In this document: piece by piece, positions 4,531 to 15,741 of the stretch
How the letters are laid out: every line of letters begins with the position of its first letter
Numbering within the stretch: position 1 is the first letter of the stretch
Source of the DNA: Hyphomicrobiales bacterium
Lineage (GTDB): Bacteria > Pseudomonadota > Alphaproteobacteria > Rhizobiales > Devosiaceae
Direction of reading: 5' to 3'
Length of the DNA: 64,000 bases
NCBI GenBank assembly: GCA_900470445.1
Contig: UCAU01000009.1
Span: 1-64,000, forward strand
Notes under the pieces: generated by a model
Databases searched by the model: none
Told to the model about the DNA's origin: nothing
The model's input: only the letters and a program-made list of their open reading frames with translations
Made by a program: the position numbers and the translations under genes

Positions 4531-5352
4531 TTACCCCCCCAAAATCCCCCGTGCCCGCGCAATCACCGGCGCATCCACCATCTTTCCATCCACCACAAAC
4601 GCGCCCTCATTGCGCGCCGCGGCCGCAACCACCCGTCGCGCCCAATCCAGCTCGTCCACACTCGGCGCAAATGCCGCATTGAGCACCGCCACTACCGACG
4701 GATGCACGCAACTCGCCCCATCAAACCCATGCATCCGCGCCTCGCGCGCCGCCTCCGCCAGAGCCTGCGTGTCAGCATAATCCGCCGTCGACCGCAGTAG
4801 CCCAAATGACAGCCGCCCCTCCGCCTTGGCCGCATAATGCACCATCAGCTTGGGAAATTTCAGCACCTCCGGCACCGGCTGTGCCCCCAGCAAAAATGCC
4901 AGATCTTCCCCGCCCGTACTCAGCGCCATCACCCGTGGCTCCCGCGCAATCGCCCGCGCGTCGAGCACCGCCGCCGGGCTCTCGATCAGCGGCACAAAAG
5001 CCAGCTCCTCCCGCCTCAGCGACACTTCTAGCGGATGCAGCCGCGCCGCCAGCTCGCGCAGCGTCTTGGGGTCCTCCACCTTGGGCACATAAAGCCCGAA
5101 CGCTCCCGCCCGGCACGCCGCCTCCGCGTCCCCCAGCATCAGCGCCGGATCGGCATTGATCCGCACGAACGCCTTGGCGCCATTGCGCCCCACCGCCGGC
5201 ACCGCCTCAGCCAGCCGCGCCCGCGCACCGGCCTTGTCAGCCGCCACCACCGCATCCTCGAGGTCCAGAATGATTGCGTCGGCCCCGCGCTCATGCGCCT
5301 TGGCGATAAACCGCTCCGAACTCGCCGGCACATAGAGCAGCGAGCGGATCAT
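4531..5352 (-). CDS. CitE-like HpcH/HpaI aldolase/lyase family protein
   Basis: A 273-aa TIM-barrel lyase of the citrate-lyase beta-subunit-like family, which cleaves or condenses beta-hydroxyacyl-CoA thioesters (for example malyl-CoA or citramalyl-CoA). Seen: N-terminal RSLLYVPAS, the ILDLEDAV motif (about residues 28-35), FVRIN, FVPLIESP and the metal-site region ALSTGGEDLAFLLG, ending with GASCVHPSVV. Its start overlaps the stop of the upstream CoA-transferase gene (ATGA), so the two are made together. The pair suggests a CoA-activation then cleavage route for a hydroxy acid; the substrate is not identifiable. Confidence 0.87.
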   Translation of the reverse strand: MIRSLLYVPASSERFIAKAHERGADAIILDLEDAVVAADKAGARARLAEAVPAVGRNGAKAFVRINADPALMLGDAEAACRAGAFGLYVPKVEDPKTLRELAARLHPLEVSLRREELAFVPLIESPAAVLDARAIAREPRVMALSTGGEDLAFLLGAQPVPEVLKFPKLMVHYAAKAEGRLSFGLLRSTADYADTQALAEAAREARMHGFDGASCVHPSVVAVLNAAFAPSVDELDWARRVVAAAARNEGAFVVDGKMVDAPVIARARGILGG

Positions 5353-6560
5353 GCTCCCGTCTCCATCGCCGCCGCGATCTGCCCTTCATCAAGCCCCGCC
5401 TCGCCCAAAACCTCGCGCGTATGCTCGCCCAGCCCCGGTGCCGGCCGCCGCCAAATGCCCGGCGTGCCCGACATGCGCGGCACGATATTGTGCATCGGCA
5501 ACGTCCCGAATTCCGCATCCTCGACATCGACGATGATTTCGCGCTCATCGAAATGCGGGTCCGCCATCGCATCGGCAATATTGAAGATCGGCCCCACCGT
5601 CGCCCCCGATTTGCGCATCATATCAAGCGCATCCACGCTGTTCCGCCCAGCAAACCATCCGCCAATCGCTTCGTCCACCAGCGCGCGGTTCTTCACCCGG
5701 TCCGAATTACTGGCAAAGCGCGGATCGTCATTCATGTCGCCGCGGCCGATAATCTCGAAAATCCGTCGCGCCACCGCCGGCGTCGAGCCCGACAGCGCCA
5801 GATATTTCCCATCGGCACAGCGATAGACATTGCGCGGCGAGGCCGTATTGGACGCACTCCCCACCCGCTGCTTGGTCTTGCCGGTCACCGCATGAATGGC
5901 CGCCTCCGGCCCCAACACCGAAAACATCGGCTCCAGCAGCGACAGGTCAATCACCTGCCCCCGCGCCCGCCCCTGTTGCCGCGCATAAAGCGCCATGGTC
6001 GTGGCCGACGCCCCATAAATCCCCGCGATCATATCCGCCAGCGCCAGCGGCGGCAGCACCGGCTCCCGGTCGGGAAATCCCGTCCGATCCGCAAACCCGC
6101 TCATCGCCTCGACAATCGTACCAAAGCCCGGCAATTGGGCATAAGGCCCGGTTTGCCCAAAGCCCGAAATCCTCACAATGATCAGATCAGGATTGCGCCC
6201 AAGCAGCGCCTCGGGCGCCAGCCCCATGGCTTCGAGCGTACCCGGCCGATAATTCTCGATGAACACATCGGCCCCATCGACCAGCGCCCATAGCGCCGCC
6301 ATGGCCGGCCCATGCCGCAGGTTCAGCGCCACCGAGCGTTTATTGCGCCCATAGGTCTTCCAGAACAGGGAATGCCCATCATCCTTCCAATCCCGCAGGG
6401 GATCGCCATCATGCCCCTCGATCTTGATGACATCGGCGCCGAAGTCGGCAAGCTGCAGGCTGAGCATGTTGCCGGCCATCAGGCGCGACAGATCGAGTAC
6501 CCTAATACCGTCAAGCGGGCCCTTGGCTGCGGGATCAAAAAATTTGTGGGTGAAGGTCAT
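5349..6560 (-). CDS. CaiB/BaiF class III CoA-transferase
   Basis: A 403-aa family III CoA-transferase that moves CoA from one acyl-CoA to another carboxylic acid. Seen: GIRVLDLSRLMAGN near residue 18, DVIKIE, the YGRNKRSVALNL block, FIENYRPGTL, ISGFGQTGPY, and LADMIAG, whose Asp (about residue 176) matches the catalytic nucleophile. The frame stays open to 6596, but those extra 12 residues (MVRQAHHEVFGK) come from an intergenic palindrome, so I start at MTFTHKF (6560). It is coupled to the CitE-like gene. It is 121 nt from the ATPase gene upstream and may or may not be in the same transcript. Confidence 0.88.
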   Translation of the reverse strand: MTFTHKFFDPAAKGPLDGIRVLDLSRLMAGNMLSLQLADFGADVIKIEGHDGDPLRDWKDDGHSLFWKTYGRNKRSVALNLRHGPAMAALWALVDGADVFIENYRPGTLEAMGLAPEALLGRNPDLIIVRISGFGQTGPYAQLPGFGTIVEAMSGFADRTGFPDREPVLPPLALADMIAGIYGASATTMALYARQQGRARGQVIDLSLLEPMFSVLGPEAAIHAVTGKTKQRVGSASNTASPRNVYRCADGKYLALSGSTPAVARRIFEIIGRGDMNDDPRFASNSDRVKNRALVDEAIGGWFAGRNSVDALDMMRKSGATVGPIFNIADAMADPHFDEREIIVDVEDAEFGTLPMHNIVPRMSGTPGIWRRPAPGLGEHTREVLGEAGLDEGQIAAAMETGA

Positions 6561-6568
6561 TTTCCCAA

Positions 6569-6664
6569 AGACCTCATGGTGAGCCTGTCGAACCACGAGG
6601 TCGAGCGAGTGAAGGCTTGGATGCCACGACCTCGTCCTTCGACAAGCTCAGGATGAGGTCTACT
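6569..6664. repeat. family 1 intergenic inverted repeat
   Basis: Two inverted arms, about 6569-6603 and 6625-6664, with the same sequence as the pair at 4232-4330 (core CTTCGACAAGCTCAGGATGA on one arm). Read on the minus strand, the left arm stays open into the CoA-transferase gene and would encode MVRQAHHEV, a peptide typical of this repeat rather than of the protein. It fills the gap between the ATPase and CoA-transferase genes. Confidence 0.85.
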
Positions 6665-6681
6665 GGGCACGTGAGACAACA

Positions 6682-7740
6682 TCACCGCAGCCTCAACCCC
6701 GTGCCCTTGTCAAAAATCAACAACCGCTCGGGATCAATTCGCAGCTGCACCACCGCCCCGGGGCTCAACAGCCCATGATCCCGCACCACAATGGAAATGT
6801 CCTCATCCCCAATCCGCGCCAGCACTTCCTGCGCGTCGCCGGTCGGCTCCACCACCACCACATTGGCCGGCACGCCCGCATCTGCCAGCGTGATATGCTG
6901 CGGCCGTACGCCATAAACGATCTGCGTCCCTACCGGCACATCGAGCGCCGTGCCCAATGGCAGCTTCGTCCCATTCTTCAGCGCCACATCCGTGCCGCCC
7001 TGGTAAACCGCCTCGAATAGATTGATCTCGGGCGAGCCGATAAAGCTCGCAACAAATAGGTTCACCGGATTGTTGTAGAGCTCCAGCGGCGCCCCGGCCT
7101 GTTCGATCTTGCCGCCATTGAGCACCACGATCTTGTCAGCCATGGTCATGGCCTCGGTCTGATCATGTGTCACGTAAATCGTGGTCTTGCCCAGTCGCTG
7201 ATGCAGCCGCTTGATCTCGCCGCGCATCTTCACCCGCAGCTTGGCATCAAGGTTCGATAGCGGCTCATCGAACAAAAACGCCCGCGGATTGCGCACGATC
7301 GCCCGCCCCATGGCCACACGCTGGCGCTGCCCGCCGGACAGCTCGCGCGGCAGCCGGTTGATCAGCTTTTCCAGCCCAAGAGTTTCCGCGGCCTCGTCCA
7401 CTCGCTGCTTGATTTCGGCTTTGGGTGTGCCGGCGAGCTTGAGCGCGAAGCTCATATTGTCGGCCACTTTCATATGCGGATAGAGCGCATAATTCTGGAA
7501 CACCATGGCCAGGTCCCGCTCCTTGGCCGGCATATTGTTCACCACCTTGCCGCCAATGGTGATCTGCCCGGAGGTAATGTCCTCAAGCCCGGCAATCATG
7601 CGCAGCAAGGTCGATTTCCCGCACCCCGAGGGCCCGACCAGCACGACGAATTCGCCATTACCCATTTCAAGAGAAATGTCATCGAGCACAGTAACTTGCC
7701 CATAAGATTTCCCAACGCGCTTGAGCTCGATCTCAGACAT
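6682..7740 (-). CDS. sugar ABC transporter ATP-binding protein, UgpC/MsmK type
   Basis: A 352-aa ATPase of the CUT1 carbohydrate importer class. Walker [10 protein letters not shown] is at residues 36-44, [15 protein letters not shown] follows, then Walker [12 protein letters not shown] and the H-loop YVTHDQTEA. The C-terminal third (about 235-352) has the TOBE/OB regulatory domain ([16 protein letters not shown]). Start at [16 protein letters not shown] sits about 7 nt upstream, while the longer frame to 7779 has no such signal. It is very likely the motor for the two LplB/LplC-type permeases at 12.8-14.7 kb, whose operon otherwise lacks an ATPase. Confidence 0.9.
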
Positions 7741-7785
7741 TCTGGTCTCCTCCGAGGGGGAACGCACGAGGCGCTCCACCCCACC

Positions 7786-7828: not shown

Positions 7829-9928
7829 TTACGCCGTCTCGACGATCTCAATCCGCCCAACGCCGACCCGTCCGGCCGAAGCCAGTCGAATGCCCGTCAT
7901 GCCATAAGCGTAGCTGGCGTCCGTCGCCTCGATCAGCACCTTGCCATCGACGGCAAAGCTCAGCCGGTCACCCTTGAGCGTAAACTCAAACGAATAGGTC
8001 TTGCCGGTCTCGACCTTGAACGGCGCCCGCGCCAGCACGGTGCTGCCGAAATCCTCCTTGAGGATCACAACCTCGTCGCCCTCGAACCCGGCCGCATAGA
8101 ACCGTGCCGTGCCCTGCACACGCGCCGTCACCAGTTGCGAAATGCCCGACAGGCGCTGCACATCGGCCGTCACGCTCAGGTCACGCGCATAATAATGCCC
8201 GGTCCACAGATCGGCGTCCGTCGCCGTATGCCCCTGAATGCGGTCACCCGACTTGGTCCAGTGCCCCCGGTTCCAGGTAAAGCGCGTGATGGAGCCCAGC
8301 TCCTGCACTTCCCGCGCCGGCTCGATCACCGTCTTGCCCGCCCCGCCGATCTGGAAATCGGCCAGGAACAACCGCCCCAGGAACTTCAGCCGCCCGAAAT
8401 ATTCGATGGAGATACCCACCTCGTCGATCGCCTCATCGCCTTCCGGCACCACAAAGCTGATCTCCTGCCAGCCCTCGGCCGAGGGCACATGCCATGCGCC
8501 CGTCTCCTCAATGGCCCCGCTCATCGTCCGGCGGATGTAAGGCGCAATCCGCAGATTGCCGTCGCCATTCCACGGATCGAGCCACACCTTGAAGCTCACC
8601 GTCTGCCCGGCATCGAGCACCGGCGAGAACATCGGGCGATAGCGCTCATCGTCAAAATCGGCCCGGCGATAGAATGGCTTCCAGAATACCCGTCCGCCCT
8701 GCCCGCGCTCCAGCCGGTCAAGCTGGATTTCCAGCGATCCGCGAGAGTCCTCAGTGTGCCGCTCCGTCCCGCCCTTGAGCGTGATCTGGTTGAAGCCCTC
8801 GGTGCGGAAGCCATGCGTCGCCCCCGGCAGATCGAAATCGAACCGCACCCCGCGCCGCGTCATATCCTCCAGCCACAGCGCCGGAACATCACGCCCCGCC
8901 AATTGCAGCGCCAGCACGGTCAATTCCCGCGCAAAGCTCGGGATATCGACAATGTTGATCGACCCGACAATGCCCGACGCCACCAGGAAATCGTTGATCG
9001 GCTTGCGATACTTGTCCCAGCCCGGCTGCAGCCCCTCGAACGTGCCGACAATAGCGCCCGCATTGCCCGCATTGCAGTCCGTATCCCAGCCCGCCATGGT
9101 CGCAATCTCGACCGTGCGCGGCAGGTCGCCCTTGCCATAGAGGATCGACATAATGGTCACGCCGGCATTGGGAATGATGTGGCAAACGCCCGGATAGCGG
9201 TCATAGCCCCATTCCGCCGTCAGCATGTCGCGGCAAGCGCGCCAGTCATCGGGATTGGCCGCATAGAAGTCGATCACCGCCTGGCAAACCCGCGCATAGG
9301 TCGAGCTTGCGTCGATCGTCCCCATCGCCGTGGCGATAATCTCGTCAATCGACTTCGCCTCAAACGCCGCCGCAATCGCCGCCGCGCAGAAACGCGCTCC
9401 ATTGAGCCCGTCGCCATCATGCGCCACTGATGCCGCCATGGCCGACATATCGGCCGCCTTCTGCGGATTGCCCGGGTTCACCCAGCCCCAGCTATCGATG
9501 AAAATCTGCCCGCCGATCTGCTCGGCCACAGTCGTCCCATTCTGCGCAATCGACCCCGATTGCGGCGCAGCAATCCCCGCCCGCAGATTGCGATAAGCCG
9601 TATGCTCGGTCGAAACGCCAAACCCGCCCCACCAATACATGCCATGCTCTTCGGCGGCATAATTCAGCCACGTCTTGCCCACATCGGCCGCGCTCGCATT
9701 CAGCCCATAATCGCGCAGCGCCCGGATGAAATAGACCGGACCATTGGTGTCATCATCTGCCGCGAAGTTCTTGAAATCGCGCAGATATTGCGTCACCTCG
9801 CCATAGGTCTTCTGTATGCGCTCATAGCTCCAGATGGTCGGCTCCACTGGGGCGCCCAGGCGCACGCCAATGGCCTTGCCGATGAAGCCGGCATAGATTT
9901 TCTCAAGAATTTGGATTTCGGAGAGCAT
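7829..9928 (-). CDS. ADP-ribosylglycohydrolase-fold enzyme with C-terminal beta-sandwich domains
   Basis: A 699-aa protein with no signal peptide. Residues 1-320 have the DraG/ARH fold: DDDT at 58-61 and DTDCN at 282-286 followed by AGNAGAIVGT, the two acidic clusters that bind the paired metal ions. The usual GDxxG near the N-terminus reads GVRLG (21-25), so its Asp is missing. Residues about 350-699 are beta-rich: first a CBM-like stretch, then a LamG/concanavalin-like domain with a GKxYxFxFTLKGDRLSFAVDGK pattern. The family cleaves ADP-ribosyl or related N-/O-ribosyl bonds; given the sugar importer around it, a glycoside substrate is plausible. It is 12 nt from the second ARH gene. Confidence 0.82.
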   Translation of the reverse strand: MLSEIQILEKIYAGFIGKAIGVRLGAPVEPTIWSYERIQKTYGEVTQYLRDFKNFAADDDTNGPVYFIRALRDYGLNASAADVGKTWLNYAAEEHGMYWWGGFGVSTEHTAYRNLRAGIAAPQSGSIAQNGTTVAEQIGGQIFIDSWGWVNPGNPQKAADMSAMAASVAHDGDGLNGARFCAAAIAAAFEAKSIDEIIATAMGTIDASSTYARVCQAVIDFYAANPDDWRACRDMLTAEWGYDRYPGVCHIIPNAGVTIMSILYGKGDLPRTVEIATMAGWDTDCNAGNAGAIVGTFEGLQPGWDKYRKPINDFLVASGIVGSINIVDIPSFARELTVLALQLAGRDVPALWLEDMTRRGVRFDFDLPGATHGFRTEGFNQITLKGGTERHTEDSRGSLEIQLDRLERGQGGRVFWKPFYRRADFDDERYRPMFSPVLDAGQTVSFKVWLDPWNGDGNLRIAPYIRRTMSGAIEETGAWHVPSAEGWQEISFVVPEGDEAIDEVGISIEYFGRLKFLGRLFLADFQIGGAGKTVIEPAREVQELGSITRFTWNRGHWTKSGDRIQGHTATDADLWTGHYYARDLSVTADVQRLSGISQLVTARVQGTARFYAAGFEGDEVVILKEDFGSTVLARAPFKVETGKTYSFEFTLKGDRLSFAVDGKVLIEATDASYAYGMTGIRLASAGRVGVGRIEIVETA

Positions 9929-9940
9929 CAGAAAAGTCTT

Positions 9941-11137
9941 TCAAACAAGAGTAAGGCGAGCGCGCTGGCGCGCTTCGGCGGCTTGGTGATCGGCAGTGAG
10001 AATGGTCTTGGCCGTTTCGGTGAAGGCATCGGCCGATGCCGTCAAATCGAGCCGATTGGCGCTATCGAGCAACGCCCGGTCCTCGGCGAGGATGACGCTC
10101 TCGCCATGCAGCGCGCCAAGGATCGCCCCGGCCATCACGCCAATGGAATCCGTATCCCGCCCCGAATTGATCCCGTCTTCGATCGATACGCGGAATGCCC
10201 CGTCATTGAGTAGGCAAAAGCCCAGCGCCAGCGGCAATTCCTCGATCGCATTGAGCCGGCTGGGCCGATAGGCATCGGTCAGCCGCCCCACCCGCTCGGG
10301 GCTGTGGTTCACATCGTCCCCCATGGGCGAATATTTGGCGATTGCCGCGTGAAACGCGTCGCATACCGCCGCATGGCTCGCGCCGGTGCCGCGCAAGTCC
10401 CGCGCAATCGCGGCAATCTCCACAATGGCGTTGCGCGTGCCGTCCTTGGCCACGCCAATCGCCGCGTCGACAATGGCGTCGATGCTGGTATCAGGCACAA
10501 AAGCCGCCGCTACCGCCGCCGCCATCACCCCGGCCGCTTCCAGCCCAAAACTCTCCTGGTGTCCCGAAGCAAAGGCGATCGCCTCGTCATAGGCCGCCTT
10601 GGGGTCCGCCGCATTAGTCACGCCAATCGGCGCGATATACATAGCCGCCCCGCAATTGACCATGTTCCCGATCCCGCCCTGCCGCGGGTCGCAGGAACTC
10701 AGCTGATGCCGCTGGAAAATCCACTTTTCCGGGTAAAACAGCCGGTCGATCAACATCGCCTCGCGCTGCAATTCGGGCACCCAGCGCGGCTTCCAGGCGA
10801 TTTCGCGCACCATGCCGTCCGCCATGTCCCAGGCATCCAGATGCCGGCGCACATCGGCGTAAATGTCCATCAGCGCCAGCGTCATCAGCGTGTCGTCGGT
10901 GACAATACCGTCCCCGCGCACCCGGTTATTGCGCGCCTCGGGCGCCATATCCATCTTGTGCCAGCGCGTCTTGAGCGAGGTCACCCGGCCATAACGCGCC
11001 CGGATATCGGCCGCCGACAGCTTCTCCACCGGCGCGCCGAGCGCATCGCCCAGGGCAATGCCGTGCAACATGGCGCGGACCCGGCCGCGAAGGGAATTTG
11101 GCATGTATTCGACTTTCACTTCTGACAGTCGCCCCAC
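9941..11137 (-). CDS. ADP-ribosylglycohydrolase family protein
   Basis: A 398-aa DraG/ARH-fold hydrolase with all family metal motifs: GDALG at residues 30-34, TDDT at 80-83 and GRDTDS around 326-331 followed by GxxxGAxxG. Family members need two Mg or Mn ions and cut N- or O-glycosidic bonds of ADP-ribose-like groups. Start: GTG at 11137 has a GGAGG 7 nt upstream, but that GGAGG belongs to a palindromic repeat; ATG at 11104 (MPNSLRGRVRAML) is the alternative and gives the family's usual N-terminus. It is paired with the longer ARH gene and lies downstream of the solute-binding-protein gene. Confidence 0.85.
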   Translation of the reverse strand: MGRLSEVKVEYMPNSLRGRVRAMLHGIALGDALGAPVEKLSAADIRARYGRVTSLKTRWHKMDMAPEARNNRVRGDGIVTDDTLMTLALMDIYADVRRHLDAWDMADGMVREIAWKPRWVPELQREAMLIDRLFYPEKWIFQRHQLSSCDPRQGGIGNMVNCGAAMYIAPIGVTNAADPKAAYDEAIAFASGHQESFGLEAAGVMAAAVAAAFVPDTSIDAIVDAAIGVAKDGTRNAIVEIAAIARDLRGTGASHAAVCDAFHAAIAKYSPMGDDVNHSPERVGRLTDAYRPSRLNAIEELPLALGFCLLNDGAFRVSIEDGINSGRDTDSIGVMAGAILGALHGESVILAEDRALLDSANRLDLTASADAFTETAKTILTADHQAAEARQRARLTLV

Positions 11138-11195: not shown

Positions 11196-12602
11196 CTACT
11201 TCAACACAGTCCGCGCATATTCATTGAGCCGGCTGCCGCCCGCCGCTTCCCATTCCGCGACATAGGCATCCCACTGGTCCATTCCGGCCTCGCCGGAGAT
11301 GAACTTGTAGACCCAGGCGCGGTAGACGCTTTCGGTGGCATCGAGGTCCGCCGCATAATCAGCCGGGAACACGAACGCATTGTCCGGGTTGAAATTGTCC
11401 GACACCTGCTTGAGTGAGCCTTGCGCGGCTTCGCTCATCCAGGGGGTCGGCGGCGTCCAATTGGCGGCCGCAAAGAACCGCGCATACCAGGTGCTGATCT
11501 TGTCGGTCATCGTGTAGGTGTCGCCCGACTTGGTATATTCCTCGCCTTCAAAGCCGAGGCGGTCGAGCAATTGGCCTTCCGGGCTCGCCATGAAATCAAG
11601 CAGCGCCATCACCGTGTCCTTGTGCTCGGAGAGCGAGGACATGGCAAAGCCGCGCGCTTCCTTGGATACGTCGATGGCCTGATTGCCCTGCCCGGCCGGC
11701 CCTTTGGGCGGCGCCAGCAGCACCAGTTCAGTGCCCGGATGCACCTGGCGCATCTTGCCGCCATAAATGTCGATGACCTCGGCCGACGAGCCGAAGATCA
11801 CGCCCGCCTTGCCGGTATAGAACTTGTCTTCCTTCACATCGAATTTGGACGTGATGTATTCGGGATCAAACAGGCCCTTCTCGCGCAGCGAGGCGTAGAA
11901 GGCGATCTTGTCCTTCTCCTGGCTGGTGATGCGGGCATTGACCCATTCGCCAGCCTCATTCTTCATCCAGCTCCCGGTCACGCCGAAGGCCTGGTTGAAA
12001 ATGGAATCCAGCTCATTGGTGTTGTCGGCCGTGGTCACGCCATAGGTATTGGCCACCCTGTCGCCGTCAAAATCGCCATCCTTGATGGCGGTGAACAGGG
12101 CGACATAGTCCTCAACCGTCTGCGGCGCCGGCAGGCCCGACTTTTCCAGCCAATCCTTGCGGATCACCGGCTGCGGCATGCGCGGCGGATAGACGTAAAG
12201 CAGGTAGGGATAATTGGCCAACCGCTCCACATTGTGCGGATAAAGCGCCGCCTTCAGGTTGGGCGATTTCTCGATCCAGGGCGTCAGGTCTTCGAGAATC
12301 CCCTGCTCCACCATCTTGGCGTCGCCACCCTGGAAATAGATCAGGTCTGGAATATCGCCCGACAGCAGCATGACGCTGAGCGCATCGGCATAGCCGGAGC
12401 TGGGCAGATCAACGATCTGGATATCGATCTCGGTGCCCTTGGCCGCCATCGCTGCCTCGATCCGCTCGATATGCTTCACATCGGGCGGATTGGTACTCAC
12501 CAGATCCTTGCTGACCATCCGGATCACCACCGGCTCGGCAAATGCCGGCACCATGGCAAAAGCCAGCGCAGTCGTCGCCAGCAACAGTTTCCTCATAAGC
12601 AT
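11196..12602 (-). CDS. extracellular solute-binding protein of a carbohydrate ABC importer
   Basis: A 468-aa secreted receptor. The first 22 residues form a signal peptide (MLMRKLLLATTALAFAMVPAFA, cut after AFA; no lipobox). The mature part has the family-1 binding-protein pattern: DLPSSGYADALSVMLLSGDIPDLIYF early, then WLEKSGL and the C-terminal ADYAADLDA and WVYKFISGEAGMDQWDAYVAEW. The last motif is typical of LplA-like receptors working with LplB/LplC permeases. AGGAGGA stands 7 nt before the chosen ATG. It lies between the permease and ARH genes in the same direction. Confidence 0.9.
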   Translation of the reverse strand: MLMRKLLLATTALAFAMVPAFAEPVVIRMVSKDLVSTNPPDVKHIERIEAAMAAKGTEIDIQIVDLPSSGYADALSVMLLSGDIPDLIYFQGGDAKMVEQGILEDLTPWIEKSPNLKAALYPHNVERLANYPYLLYVYPPRMPQPVIRKDWLEKSGLPAPQTVEDYVALFTAIKDGDFDGDRVANTYGVTTADNTNELDSIFNQAFGVTGSWMKNEAGEWVNARITSQEKDKIAFYASLREKGLFDPEYITSKFDVKEDKFYTGKAGVIFGSSAEVIDIYGGKMRQVHPGTELVLLAPPKGPAGQGNQAIDVSKEARGFAMSSLSEHKDTVMALLDFMASPEGQLLDRLGFEGEEYTKSGDTYTMTDKISTWYARFFAAANWTPPTPWMSEAAQGSLKQVSDNFNPDNAFVFPADYAADLDATESVYRAWVYKFISGEAGMDQWDAYVAEWEAAGGSRLNEYARTVLK

Positions 12603-12787: not shown

Positions 12788-13687
12788 TCATCCCTTCAAC
12801 GCCCCCGACATCGTCCCCTTGGTGAAGAACTTTAGAATCAGCGGGTAAATCACCAGGATCGGCACAATGGTCAGGATGATCATCCCGGCCTTGAGCGCTC
12901 GCAGATCGATCTGGCTGGCCCCGGTGTAATTGTTCGCCGCGTCCACCCCGACAATGGCCAGCTTGTCCCCGCCGATCACGAATTGCCGGAGCACCACCTG
13001 CAGTGGCCACTTGCCCTGGTCGGTGATGTAGATCATCGCCCGGAAGAACTCGTTCCAGTGGAACACGATGTAGAACAGGGTGATCGTCGCCAGCGCCGGC
13101 TTGGCTAGCGGCAGCACCACATACCAAAAGGTCTGGAACGCGTTGGAGCCGTCCAGCTCAGCCGCATCGAGCAATTCCTGCGGAATTTCCTCGAAGAACC
13201 GGATCAGGATGATCAGATACCAGGCATTGACCAGCTTGAAGAGGATCACCGACCAATAGCTGTCCAGCAGCCCCAGCCGCTTGTTGACGAAATAATCAGG
13301 GATAATGCCGGGGTCGAACACGATGGTGACCAGCACCATGATGAACAATATCCGCCGCCCCGGCAGGCCCGGCCGCGATAGCCCCCAGGCCATCAGCGCG
13401 GTGAAGATGATATTGAGCAGCGTGCCGGCCCCCGTGATGAGGATTGAATTGAGGAGCCCCGCCCGCACATTGGGGTGGTTGATCAATAGCGTCCACACAT
13501 CGAACGACAGCCCGCGCGGCAACACTTCCATGCCGCTCATCCCCGGCAACTTGACCGGATCGGACAACGACACCGCCAGCAGGTTGAGCAGCGGCTGCAC
13601 CGTCACCACTACCAAGAGCAGCAGTGTCGAAATGATGATCGCATATTCCACGCGCTCGAGCGGGGTGCGGCGATTATTGGCGGCCAT
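12788..13687 (-). CDS. carbohydrate ABC transporter permease, LplC/YtcP type
   Basis: A 299-aa inner-membrane permease with six predicted helices (the first around residues 16-38). The EAA loop reads ELLDAAELDGSNAFQTFWYVVLPLAKPALAT, and the end FFTKGTMSGALKG is the C-terminal signature of the LplC/YtcP group. Start: GTG 13690 (GTGA overlap) and ATG 13687 (TGATG overlap) are both possible; I use the ATG. It is translationally coupled to the other permease and forms a heterodimer with it by family knowledge. Confidence 0.9.
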   Translation of the reverse strand: MAANNRRTPLERVEYAIIISTLLLLVVVTVQPLLNLLAVSLSDPVKLPGMSGMEVLPRGLSFDVWTLLINHPNVRAGLLNSILITGAGTLLNIIFTALMAWGLSRPGLPGRRILFIMVLVTIVFDPGIIPDYFVNKRLGLLDSYWSVILFKLVNAWYLIILIRFFEEIPQELLDAAELDGSNAFQTFWYVVLPLAKPALATITLFYIVFHWNEFFRAMIYITDQGKWPLQVVLRQFVIGGDKLAIVGVDAANNYTGASQIDLRALKAGMIILTIVPILVIYPLILKFFTKGTMSGALKG

Positions 13688-14682
13688 CACCAGACTCCCT
13701 TGCCGGTCAGTCGTTTGGAAAACAGATGCGCCAGCAGGATCAGCAACATGCCCAGCACGGCCTTGAACAGTCCCGCCGCCGTCGCCAGCGAGTATTCCCC
13801 GGTCTGCAAGCCGATGCGGTAGACATAGGTGTCAACGATATCGATCTGGCTGCGCACCACGTCATTGGAGAAGTTGATCACCTGGTTGAGGTCGGCGCTG
13901 AGGAACATGCCGGCATTGAGGATGAACAGCGTGGCAATGGTCGGCACGATCCCCGGAATGGTCACGTAGAGGATCTTCTGCCAGCGATTGGCCCCGTCCA
14001 TTTCCGCCGCGTCATACAGCGCCTGGTCGATGGCGATGATTGCCGCCAGATAGAGCAGGCTATCCCACCCCGCCGAGCGCCACATTTCCGAAAACACCAG
14101 TACCCAGCGGATCGCGCCGGTATCGGTCATGTAGGATTTCGGCTGCCCGCCAAAGAAGCCGGTAATGTCGTTGACCACGCCATCGCTCGGTGACAAGGCC
14201 GCGATGAACACGCCGGCGATCACCACCCAGCTCAAGAAGTGCGGCAGATACACTGCCGACTGGATGAATTTGCGCAGCGATCCGCTCCGCACTTCATTCA
14301 GCATCAGCGCCACCACGATCGGCACCGGAAAGACGAACAGCATTTTCATGCCGGAAATGATCAGCGTGTTGACCAGCACCTGCCAGAACACCGGCGAGGT
14401 GAACAACACCTGGAAATGCTTCAGCCCCACCCAGATATTGGGTGGAATGATCCGCACCTGTTCGAACGCGATCTTGGCTTCCCAGATCGGCAGATAGTGA
14501 AACAGGATGAAGAAAATGATGCCCGGTGCCATCATGGCGTAATAGGGCCACCATTGCCGCACTTTCGCGCCGAATCCGCCCGTCGATGCTAACAGTCTGT
14601 TAGCAGATTCGGAGTCTTCGCGAGCGGGAACGTTCCCAATGTCAGGCGCCGCAACGCGGCGCAGCCCTGGCTTCACAACCAT
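13687..14682 (-). CDS. carbohydrate ABC transporter permease, LplB type
   Basis: A 331-aa permease with first helix about residues 47-66 (MMAPGIIFFILFHYLPI), then the LplB-like FPVPIVVALMLNE, QSAVYLPHFLSWVV and EAA loop ALYDAAEMDGANRWQKILYVTIPGI. The ATG at 14682 has a GGGAGG site and lies 12 nt after the regulator gene. The first 40 residues are unusual: their DNA holds two palindromes (14587-14605 and 14626-14637). A GTG at residue 41 (MRQWWPYY) would give a more typical short N-terminus and place the palindromes upstream of the gene. I keep 14682 but the start is uncertain. Confidence 0.85.
   Translation of the reverse strand: MVVKPGLRRVAAPDIGNVPAREDSESANRLLASTGGFGAKVRQWWPYYAMMAPGIIFFILFHYLPIWEAKIAFEQVRIIPPNIWVGLKHFQVLFTSPVFWQVLVNTLIISGMKMLFVFPVPIVVALMLNEVRSGSLRKFIQSAVYLPHFLSWVVIAGVFIAALSPSDGVVNDITGFFGGQPKSYMTDTGAIRWVLVFSEMWRSAGWDSLLYLAAIIAIDQALYDAAEMDGANRWQKILYVTIPGIVPTIATLFILNAGMFLSADLNQVINFSNDVVRSQIDIVDTYVYRIGLQTGEYSLATAAGLFKAVLGMLLILLAHLFSKRLTGKGVW
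14587..14605. promoter_or_regulatory. 19-bp perfect palindrome TGCTAACAG-T-CTGTTAGCA
   Basis: TGCTAACAGTCTGTTAGCA has 9-nt arms around a central T. It lies in the 5' part of the first permease gene and encodes residues about 26-32. The length and symmetry suit a dimeric regulator site. No second copy was noticed in the window. Confidence 0.5.
14626..14637. promoter_or_regulatory. candidate LacI-family operator GGGAACGTTCCC
   Basis: A perfect 12-bp palindrome with an ACGT centre, as in many LacI-type operators. It matches GGGAACGTTACC at 15784-15795 upstream of the regulator gene except for one base. It lies 45 nt inside the first permease gene as annotated. Confidence 0.6.
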
Positions 14683-14694
14683 CCTCAGTCCTCC

Positions 14695-15741
14695 CTACCC
14701 CGCCGCAACGCGCTTGGGGGCTGGCACCGACAGATCGGCGAGTGAACCTCGCTCTATCAGCCGGCACGGCATATAGATCCGGCCATGTTCGGGCCGGTGT
14801 TCGATTTCGTCGAAGAGCTGTTCCACTGCCCGCACGCCGATTTCTCGGCCCGGCTTGGCAATCGTGGTCAGCCCCGGCCAGGCAAATTCGCCCGACGGAA
14901 TGCCGTCAAAGCCGATGATCGATACATCTGCCGGGCAATTTAGCCCCGCCTCGCGCACCGCCATCATGGCGCCCAGCGCCATCATGTCATTGGCTGCAAA
15001 TACACAGACATGCCCGACATGCGGCCGCTCCAGCAGTCGCCGCATTGCCTCGCGCCCGCCCTCGACAGTGTATTCGCCATCTTCCATGGCCAATATGCCA
15101 GGGTCGATATCGCGCTCCACGCAATGCTCATGCACCGCCCGCAAGAACCGTGCCCGCGCCAGTCGCGACTTCGGTCCAACGATAAAGCTTGGTGCAGAAT
15201 GTCCTTTTGAAACAAGATGATCCATCCCAAGCCTCACGGCCTGGGTGATATCCGATCCAACGCTCGATATGTCAGCAAACCGCTCGGCGCTCGATCCGAT
15301 GAACACGAATGGCAGCCCAAAACGGTGGTGGTCGTCGAAATTATCGGCCACCGGATTGATGATCGCGCCATCCACCCGCGCCCGCCGCAGCGTGCCGATA
15401 TGGGTGGCTTCCTTGGCCGCATCCCAATCGGATGAGAACACCAAAAGCGACGCCCCACTCTCCGCCGCCCGGTCCTGTGCGCCGCGCGCCACCTCGCCCC
15501 AGAACGGATTAGTGATATCGGGAATGACCAGCCCCAGCATGCCCGAACGGCCCGATCGCATGCCCACCGCAAGGTGGTTGCGCTCATAGCCCGTCGCCGC
15601 CGCCGCGCGCAAAACCCGCTCGCGCGTCTCGTCATTGATATTGTCCGAACCGGCAAGCGCGCGCGCCGCCGTGCTCTTGGACACGCCAGCGCGTTCTGCC
15701 ACATCAATGATGGTCGGCCGACGATTGCGGCTGCTGTTCAT
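14695..15741 (-). CDS. LacI-family transcriptional regulator
   Basis: A 348-aa repressor-type regulator. The N-terminal helix-turn-helix (TIIDVAERAGVSKSTAARAL, residues 10-29) is followed by the hinge (ERNHLAVGMRSGRSGMLGLVIPDITNPFWGEV) and a periplasmic-binding-like effector domain (GFDGIPSGEFAWPGLTTI near residue 260). It is the first gene of the minus-strand sugar locus, 12 nt before the LplB-like permease, so it likely controls that operon and itself through the two GGGAACGTT palindromes. The effector is probably the imported sugar or a breakdown product. Confidence 0.92.
   Translation of the reverse strand: MNSSRNRRPTIIDVAERAGVSKSTAARALAGSDNINDETRERVLRAAAATGYERNHLAVGMRSGRSGMLGLVIPDITNPFWGEVARGAQDRAAESGASLLVFSSDWDAAKEATHIGTLRRARVDGAIINPVADNFDDHHRFGLPFVFIGSSAERFADISSVGSDITQAVRLGMDHLVSKGHSAPSFIVGPKSRLARARFLRAVHEHCVERDIDPGILAMEDGEYTVEGGREAMRRLLERPHVGHVCVFAANDMMALGAMMAVREAGLNCPADVSIIGFDGIPSGEFAWPGLTTIAKPGREIGVRAVEQLFDEIEHRPEHGRIYMPCRLIERGSLADLSVPAPKRVAAG

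Follow-up and report, generated by a model that had tools for sequence, protein, structure and literature searches.

A three-domain ARH-fold protein with an altered metal site, encoded in an ABC importer operon of a Devosiaceae bacterium

The importer operon and its fused ARH-fold protein

The stretch of DNA analysed here, referred to as the window, comprises 64,000 nucleotides from a soil bacterium of the Devosiaceae and contains a run of nine same-strand genes with gaps of -4 to 185 bp, all located on the minus strand in the order LacI, two permeases, binding protein, ARH1, a 699-aa ARH, ATPase, CaiB and CitE. The LacI-family regulator (14695..15741, PF00356/PF13377) is followed by ABC permease A (13687..14682) and ABC permease B (12788..13690), both matching PF00528, and by a solute-binding protein (11196..12602, PF01547), whose nearest match in the PDB is AlgQ1 (1y3n, E=2e-17), which we take to be an alginate-oligosaccharide binder. 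ARH1 (9941..11137), the second ARH protein of the run, has 398 aa, carries the canonical GD/TDDT/DTDS residues according to Pfam and alignment, and sits 12 bp upstream of the 699-aa ARH. An ABC ATPase of the UgpC/MalK type (6682..7779; NF008653, 479.3 bits at a cut-off of 432), a class III CoA-transferase of the CaiB type (5349..6596; PF02515, E=5e-115) and a CitE-type acyl-CoA lyase (4531..5352; PF03328) complete the run, in which no kinase gene is found. In the PDB, the CaiB-type protein matched 4ed9 (E=8e-59) and SUGCT 9br6 (E=4e-52), and the CitE-type lyase matched 8khl (E=4e-30) and the mitochondrial CitE-like 5vxc (E=5e-26); no NCBIfam equivalog scored above its cut-off for either protein.

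Importers of this type take up small compounds. By eye, no signal peptide could be seen on the 699-aa ARH, the first ARH helix of which starts from residue 4 in the predicted model, and the binding protein opens with a signal-peptide-like stretch; we therefore place the enzyme in the cytoplasm. An export signal, as expected of a secreted polysaccharide-degrading enzyme, is thus missing as judged by eye and from the position of the first helix. An earlier reading of these letters, made without database searches (the sequence-only reading), had proposed a carbohydrate polymer or a large glycoside as substrate, and both the missing signal peptide and an importer neighbourhood of the small-compound type speak against this proposal.

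The open reading frame of the fused protein (7829..9928, minus strand) could be confirmed as real and encodes 699 aa, with PF03747 (ADP_ribosyl_GH) at residues 14–300 as its single Pfam domain (E=2e-48; 166 bits at a curated cut-off of 26.2). No further Pfam domain was detected at E up to 0.1, and no NCBIfam model matched the protein. Single-sequence folding gave an unusable result (pLDDT 38), and the AF2 model built from alignment A1 (pLDDT 90.2, pTM 0.92) was used alone. A1 contains 44 rows, namely the window, the paralogue on contig C58 and 42 of 80 loci picked for spread, with 38 of the 80, split and truncated copies among them, left out. In the predicted model, residues 2–344 adopt the ARH fold, matching ARH3 (6g1p; Z 21.5, rmsd 2.8, 302 aligned) as well as MJ1187 and DraG (Z 21.0 for DraG), and the ARH-fold domain is assigned to residues 1–344 (8897..9928). 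The architecture of an ARH domain with two C-terminal beta-sandwiches, anticipated in the sequence-only reading, was borne out by this model and its fold matches in the PDB, although the ARH part had been set to end at residue 320 and the modelled fold extends to about 344 in comparison to ARH3.

Structure prediction and fold comparison of the C-terminal part, which that reading had suggested, yielded beta-sandwiches at residues 357–533 (8330..8860) and 535–699 (7832..8326), and the expected carbohydrate-binding type was found for both in the predicted model. Sandwich 1 is predicted to have a CBM22-type fold (4xuo: Z 15.0, rmsd 2.6, 147 aligned; 2c26: Z 16.1), as in xylan-binding modules of this type, but shows 12–13% identity to 4xuo and 4xup, no sequence match in Pfam or PDB, and a cluster of invariant residues at 404–432 that sets it apart. 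Sandwich 2 is predicted to have a CBM66 fold (4azz: Z 18.3, rmsd 1.7, 154 of 165 aligned), and a profile built from the 44 rows of A1 hits the levanase CBM66 of Bacillus subtilis at residues 545–686 (E=4e-10), while its identity to the levanase module is 18% and the protein that carries it is apparently cytoplasmic. The fold list also contained sialidase, galactocerebrosidase, thrombospondin, phage fibre and insecticidal-protein rows, which were likewise assigned to the sandwich domains. Going by the model, these domains may fall in a CBM family outside the list of fold matches.

Sequence conservation is distributed unevenly over the three domains. Invariant positions across the 44 A1 rows number 81 of 344 in the ARH domain, 9 of 177 in sandwich 1 and 7 of 163 in sandwich 2, and the mean identity of the window protein to 12 Firmicute and spirochaete rows is 60.8%, 39.5% and 35.1%, respectively. 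Among the 43 window-type rows, sandwich 2 shows 11 invariant positions, mostly glycines, and sandwich 1 shows 25, at least 8 of which are charged or His (H372, D404, R405, K417, D427, R429, E503 and E509 are included), a conservation that fits a role of sandwich 1 as part of the working enzyme.

Metal site and clades of ARH proteins

The 699-aa ARH contains the motifs GVRLG (21–25), DDDT (58–61) and DTDCN (282–286), the residues of which were mapped in two steps, by aligning ARH3 to ARH1 of the window and ARH1 to the 699-aa ARH. The available sections of PMC8141533 list Thr76, Asp77, Asp78 and Asp316 as ligands of one Mg ion of ARH3 and Asp314, Asp316 and Thr317 as ligands of the other, and Glu41 is described in excerpts of PMC8319183 and PMC9738213 as contacting one Mg ion and is proposed to help catalysis. 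The position of the catalytic Glu41 is occupied by E29 (9842..9844), T76-D77-D78 correspond to D58-D59-D60 (9749..9757), and D314-T315-D316-T317 correspond to D282-T283-D284-C285 (9074..9085), all on the minus strand. E29, D58, D59, D60, D282, D284 and C285 are unchanged in all 44 A1 rows, the window and the paralogue included. Consequently, the acidic ligands are kept, but both Thr ligands are replaced, T76 by D58 and T317 by C285, and the two-metal ligand pattern T/S-D-D ... D-x-D-T/S is lost. The sequence-only reading had taken DDDT and DTDCN as kept; both motifs are indeed present, but with these first-shell changes within them.

The Asp of the GD motif (ARH3 D34) is absent as well. Its position is taken by V22 (9863..9865), and aligning it across homologues, a check named in the sequence-only reading, showed V in 32 A1 rows and I in the other 12. 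GVRLG thus replaces GDxxG as that reading had noticed, but its description as a lost metal-motif residue is inexact, since D34 is not among the listed Mg ligands of ARH3; it is absent from the ligand table, yet D34G strongly lowers the activity of ARH3 (PMC8319183, as far as its available sections go). Judged by its residues, the 699-aa ARH is a member of the ARH fold family that keeps the catalytic Glu but lacks other defining sequence features of ADP-ribosyl-acceptor hydrolases.

ARH proteins for comparison came from other loci and from 190 genomes of the class searched with PF03747, 23 of which matched (the window's own included). The resulting motif table of 49 rows consists of 13 rows taken from A1 (of 44), 6 from alignment A2 (of 16) and 30 open frames, the last being every frame above the 1e-5 profile threshold across 33 loci, 6 of which gave none. 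GD and GxxM[RY] are names from our own reading of the alignments, and the GxxM[RY] region presumably has a role in adenosine binding. All 25 GD rows carry [TS]DD, and 24 of them combine S or T at the T317 position with GxxM[RY], the 25th being without that region. Among the 24 non-GD rows, 23 combine DDD with one of C, N and S in place of T317 and are devoid of GxxM[RY]; the 24th, L124, is without the DDD region and fits neither type. Row L127, without the later motifs, was dropped from the tree for coverage.

The 48-row tree of the ARH domain splits both types, with labels of 96 and 100 on either side of the midpoint root. Asp occupies position 22 in 24 of the 25 rows on one side (the exception being L124 with Leu) and in none of the 23 rows on the side of the 699-aa ARH. 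A GV common among ADP-ribose hydrolases of ordinary function, named in the sequence-only reading as evidence that would count against it, was therefore not seen, given the 24 of 25 rows with Asp in the other clade, whose members are assigned by sequence alone. The long fused proteins of this tree form one group (100), consisting of a window-type branch (99) and a branch of the genome's second copy (100), and Cys at the T317 position is limited to 18 fused rows of the 49-row table. V/I22, D58 and C285 recur in all 44 A1 rows and are thus considered long-fixed features of a branch and no chance or lone mutation. Other ARH proteins of the DDD type, with 457 to 662 aa, carry N or S at the T317 position (L085, L086, L087, L118 and L100 7320-9071 (+)).

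Related loci across phyla

The related loci comprise the best-ranked 80 out of 156 confirmed relatives, a set skewed to Devosia and Ensifer, and our own grouping divides them into 68 window-type, 10 Firmicute and 2 spirochaete loci. Among the 68 window-type ('alpha') loci, several are short contigs, which explains several gene misses; the ARH partner is present in 67 of them, the binding protein in 62, the permeases in 58, LacI in 55, CaiB in 61 and CitE in 53. ARH partner, binding protein and permeases are likewise found in 9 of the 10 Firmicute loci and in both spirochaete loci. A tree support of 74 was obtained for ARH1 with the Firmicute/spirochaete partner, and the partners are not clearly one orthologous group. 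One MAG counted as window-type (L053) is labelled Planctomycetota and has a gene cluster at 55–75% identity to the proteins of the window; its contig is probably mis-binned. The fused ARH gene is split into at least two frames in five loci (L044, L056, L060, L062 and L077), probably due to sequencing errors or as pseudogenes.

The genes accompanying this core vary. The Firmicute loci feature a ribokinase-like PfkB (6 of 10), CitE (5) and CitF (4, Pfam-confirmed in one locus with E=3e-166), and the spirochaete loci feature AtuA with DUF4387 (both) and PfkB (one). As acid modules, CaiB with CitE occurs in 53, CitE with CitF in 4 and AtuA with DUF4387 in 2 of the best 80 of 156 relatives. AtuA and DUF4387 adjoin methylaspartate mutase and ammonia-lyase on an E. 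coli plasmid as well as in Prevotella; the methylaspartate route passes through mesaconate and citramalate. A ribokinase-like PfkB was detected in 2 of the 68 window-type loci, with the match in L029 covering a short stretch, and no kinase in the other 66 within the available stretch. Kinase, CaiB and CitE all lie in one run in L064, and the best PDB match of the kinase in L082 is ribokinase 6znx (E=6e-46). In the cluster of Agrobacterium HAMBI 105, a ribokinase is found in place of CaiB and CitE, and the cluster of Nitratireductor contains neither CaiB/CitE nor a ribokinase. CitE is absent with CaiB present in six Ensifer/Sinorhizobium-type loci of 18 kb each (L017, L018, L020, L022, L054 and L065), both genes are absent from L026, and neither CitE nor CitF was found within 18 kb in L070 and L080. 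With CaiB and CitE missing from several clusters, the core can do without the acid module.

In Deinococcus, a ribokinase lies between two ARH genes. The fused ARH of this cluster groups in the paralogue branch and its partner (L100 7320-9071 (+)) is of the DDD type instead of canonical, so not every cluster combines two metal-site types; a further gene (L100 6595-7707) has no match in Pfam or PDB. The paralogue in the window's own genome (L091 7143-9254 (-), contig C58) is a three-domain ARH of 703 aa with about 35% identity, which belongs to a same-strand run of LacI, binding protein, two permeases, fused ARH and ATPase. No catabolic enzyme besides the fused ARH is encoded in this run, and being the only catabolic enzyme of its own importer run, the paralogue supports a hydrolase role for the three-domain architecture. 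When 299 genomes of the phylum were searched with a profile, the full-length matches were two genes of the window's genome, and four other genomes gave partial matches, indicating that the gene is patchy. A small-genome relative (L128 3276-10471), for which gene names were assigned by reading the sequence, carries, in this order, a binding-protein and two permease-like genes, a three-domain ARH and an aldo-keto-reductase-like gene, with an HpcH/HpaI-like aldolase gene on the other strand before the transporter.

Proposed function and its alternatives

We propose that the 699-aa ARH is probably a cytoplasmic, divalent-metal-dependent ARH-fold glycosidase, which splits a small compound delivered by the neighbouring ABC importer. 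Metal binding, hydrolysis, substrate class, step order and the role of the sandwiches are what we infer from predicted fold, retained ligands, gene order and conservation. Two metal ions would be held by D58–D60, D282, D284 and possibly C285 and would bind the sugar diol, with E29 helping to activate the water that attacks the anomeric carbon, as proposed for ARH3. A Cys in place of T317 might make one of the metal sites weaker and is counted against this explanation. The two C-terminal sandwiches would be rigid parts of the enzyme shaping the substrate site or an oligomer, and no polymer tether.

Several other explanations have to be considered. The alteration of the metal shell at two Thr positions and the presence of two different ARH types side by side in window-type, Firmicute and spirochaete loci would be compatible with an ARH fold that converts the imported compound in some other way, for instance by phosphorolysis, epimerisation or non-glycosidic cleavage, with ARH1 acting as the glycosidase. 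We regard this as unlikely, since the Glu and the four Asp acting in ARH3 are all retained and the run of the paralogue encodes no catabolic enzyme apart from the fused ARH. The protein could also be an ADP-ribosyl-acceptor hydrolase of the usual kind, which regulates some cellular protein and happens to be lodged in the operon, given its ARH fold and the retention of most metal ligands. That the GD, T76 and T317 positions and GxxM[RY] are all altered together in the branch, and that several phyla retain the gene next to a sugar-type importer, renders this quite improbable.

The sandwich folds of predicted CBM22 and CBM66 type and the CBM66 sequence match would be expected if the sandwiches were carbohydrate-binding modules anchoring the enzyme to a polysaccharide or a large glycoside. 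Such a function is very doubtful for an enzyme that shows no signal peptide by eye, sits in an importer neighbourhood beside a binding protein with a signal-like start, and features a sandwich 1 whose 25 invariant residues, at least 8 of them charged or His, resemble a fixed part of an enzyme; the pTM of the model further suggests rigid packing. A catalytically dead sensor or scaffold, tuning the operon upon binding of the imported sugar, could account for the changed metal ligands and the CBM-like domains, but appears most improbable, as the invariant positions are concentrated in the ARH domain rather than in the sandwiches and include all acidic ligands, and a LacI regulator is already present in the operon.

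Returning to the proposed glycosidase, its substrate is likely to differ from ADP-ribosyl groups, as the sequence-only reading had expected, given that GxxM[RY] is absent in all 23 DDD rows and that the importer is of the sugar type. Beside the same importer and ARH pair, the acid-handling modules are of three kinds, two of which share a CitE-type lyase, and the sugar kinase is of one kind, for which a glycoside of a hydroxy-dicarboxylic or tricarboxylic acid would be the simplest account. Such a glycoside would be imported whole and split inside the cell by ARH1 and the 699-aa ARH, whereupon a ribokinase-like kinase, where present, would take the sugar, and the CoA-transferase and the CitE lyase, or their replacements, would take the acid. 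The variable presence of both modules shows that other downstream routes can accompany the core. The substrate may be a riboside whose acid part resembles citramalate or citrate, but the identities of sugar and acid are guesses read from neighbouring genes. PfkB enzymes differ in their sugar, which is counted against this explanation, as are the missing kinase in the window's run and in 66 of 68 window-type loci, the absence of the acid module from several clusters, the ARH partners that do not clearly form one orthologous group, and the Deinococcus partner of the DDD type. Methanopterin (alpha-riboside and hydroxyglutarate), bacillithiol (glucosaminyl-malate) and ribose-Kdo capsule fragments were considered as candidate substrates. 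We tentatively put forward a pathway shared across phyla in which two ARH-fold glycosidases, differing in metal-site type in most clusters, would process an acidic glycoside made of a ribokinase-type sugar and a citramalate- or citrate-like acid, O-linked through the hydroxyl of the acid; the three-domain DDD type would then constitute a carbohydrate-catabolic ARH branch with its own metal centre. Taken as a whole, this pathway is rather doubtful.

In comparison to ARH3 and DraG, the 699-aa ARH shares the predicted fold of residues 2–344 as well as the catalytic Glu and the four metal Asp, and differs in the exchanges D34 to V, T76 to D and T317 to C, the missing GxxM[RY], the two added sandwiches and the neighbourhood of a sugar-type importer. 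The E. coli genes yegTUV, encoding a transporter, an ARH and a PfkB-like sugar kinase according to the available sections of PMC10819704, resemble the loci described here by their combination of an ARH with a transporter and a putative sugar kinase. This likeness is one of gene content, and yegTUV differs from the operon of the window, as far as these sections describe it, by an MFS-type transporter and a single ARH. An ARH gene beside a hemin locus, described in excerpts of PMC10434189, is apparently unrelated to the 699-aa ARH. We found no paper on such a fused ARH or gene cluster in a literature search for which subscription journals were mostly outside the scope, so that this absence is a weak one.

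ARH-fold proteins are usually read as removers of ADP-ribose, and annotation labels relatives of the 699-aa ARH likewise. What the gene clusters suggest instead is an entire branch of the fold that has a changed metal centre and works in the breakdown of nutrients, and their occurrence in Alphaproteobacteria, Firmicutes and Spirochaetes, and in Deinococcus via the paralogue branch, points to a natural glycoside.
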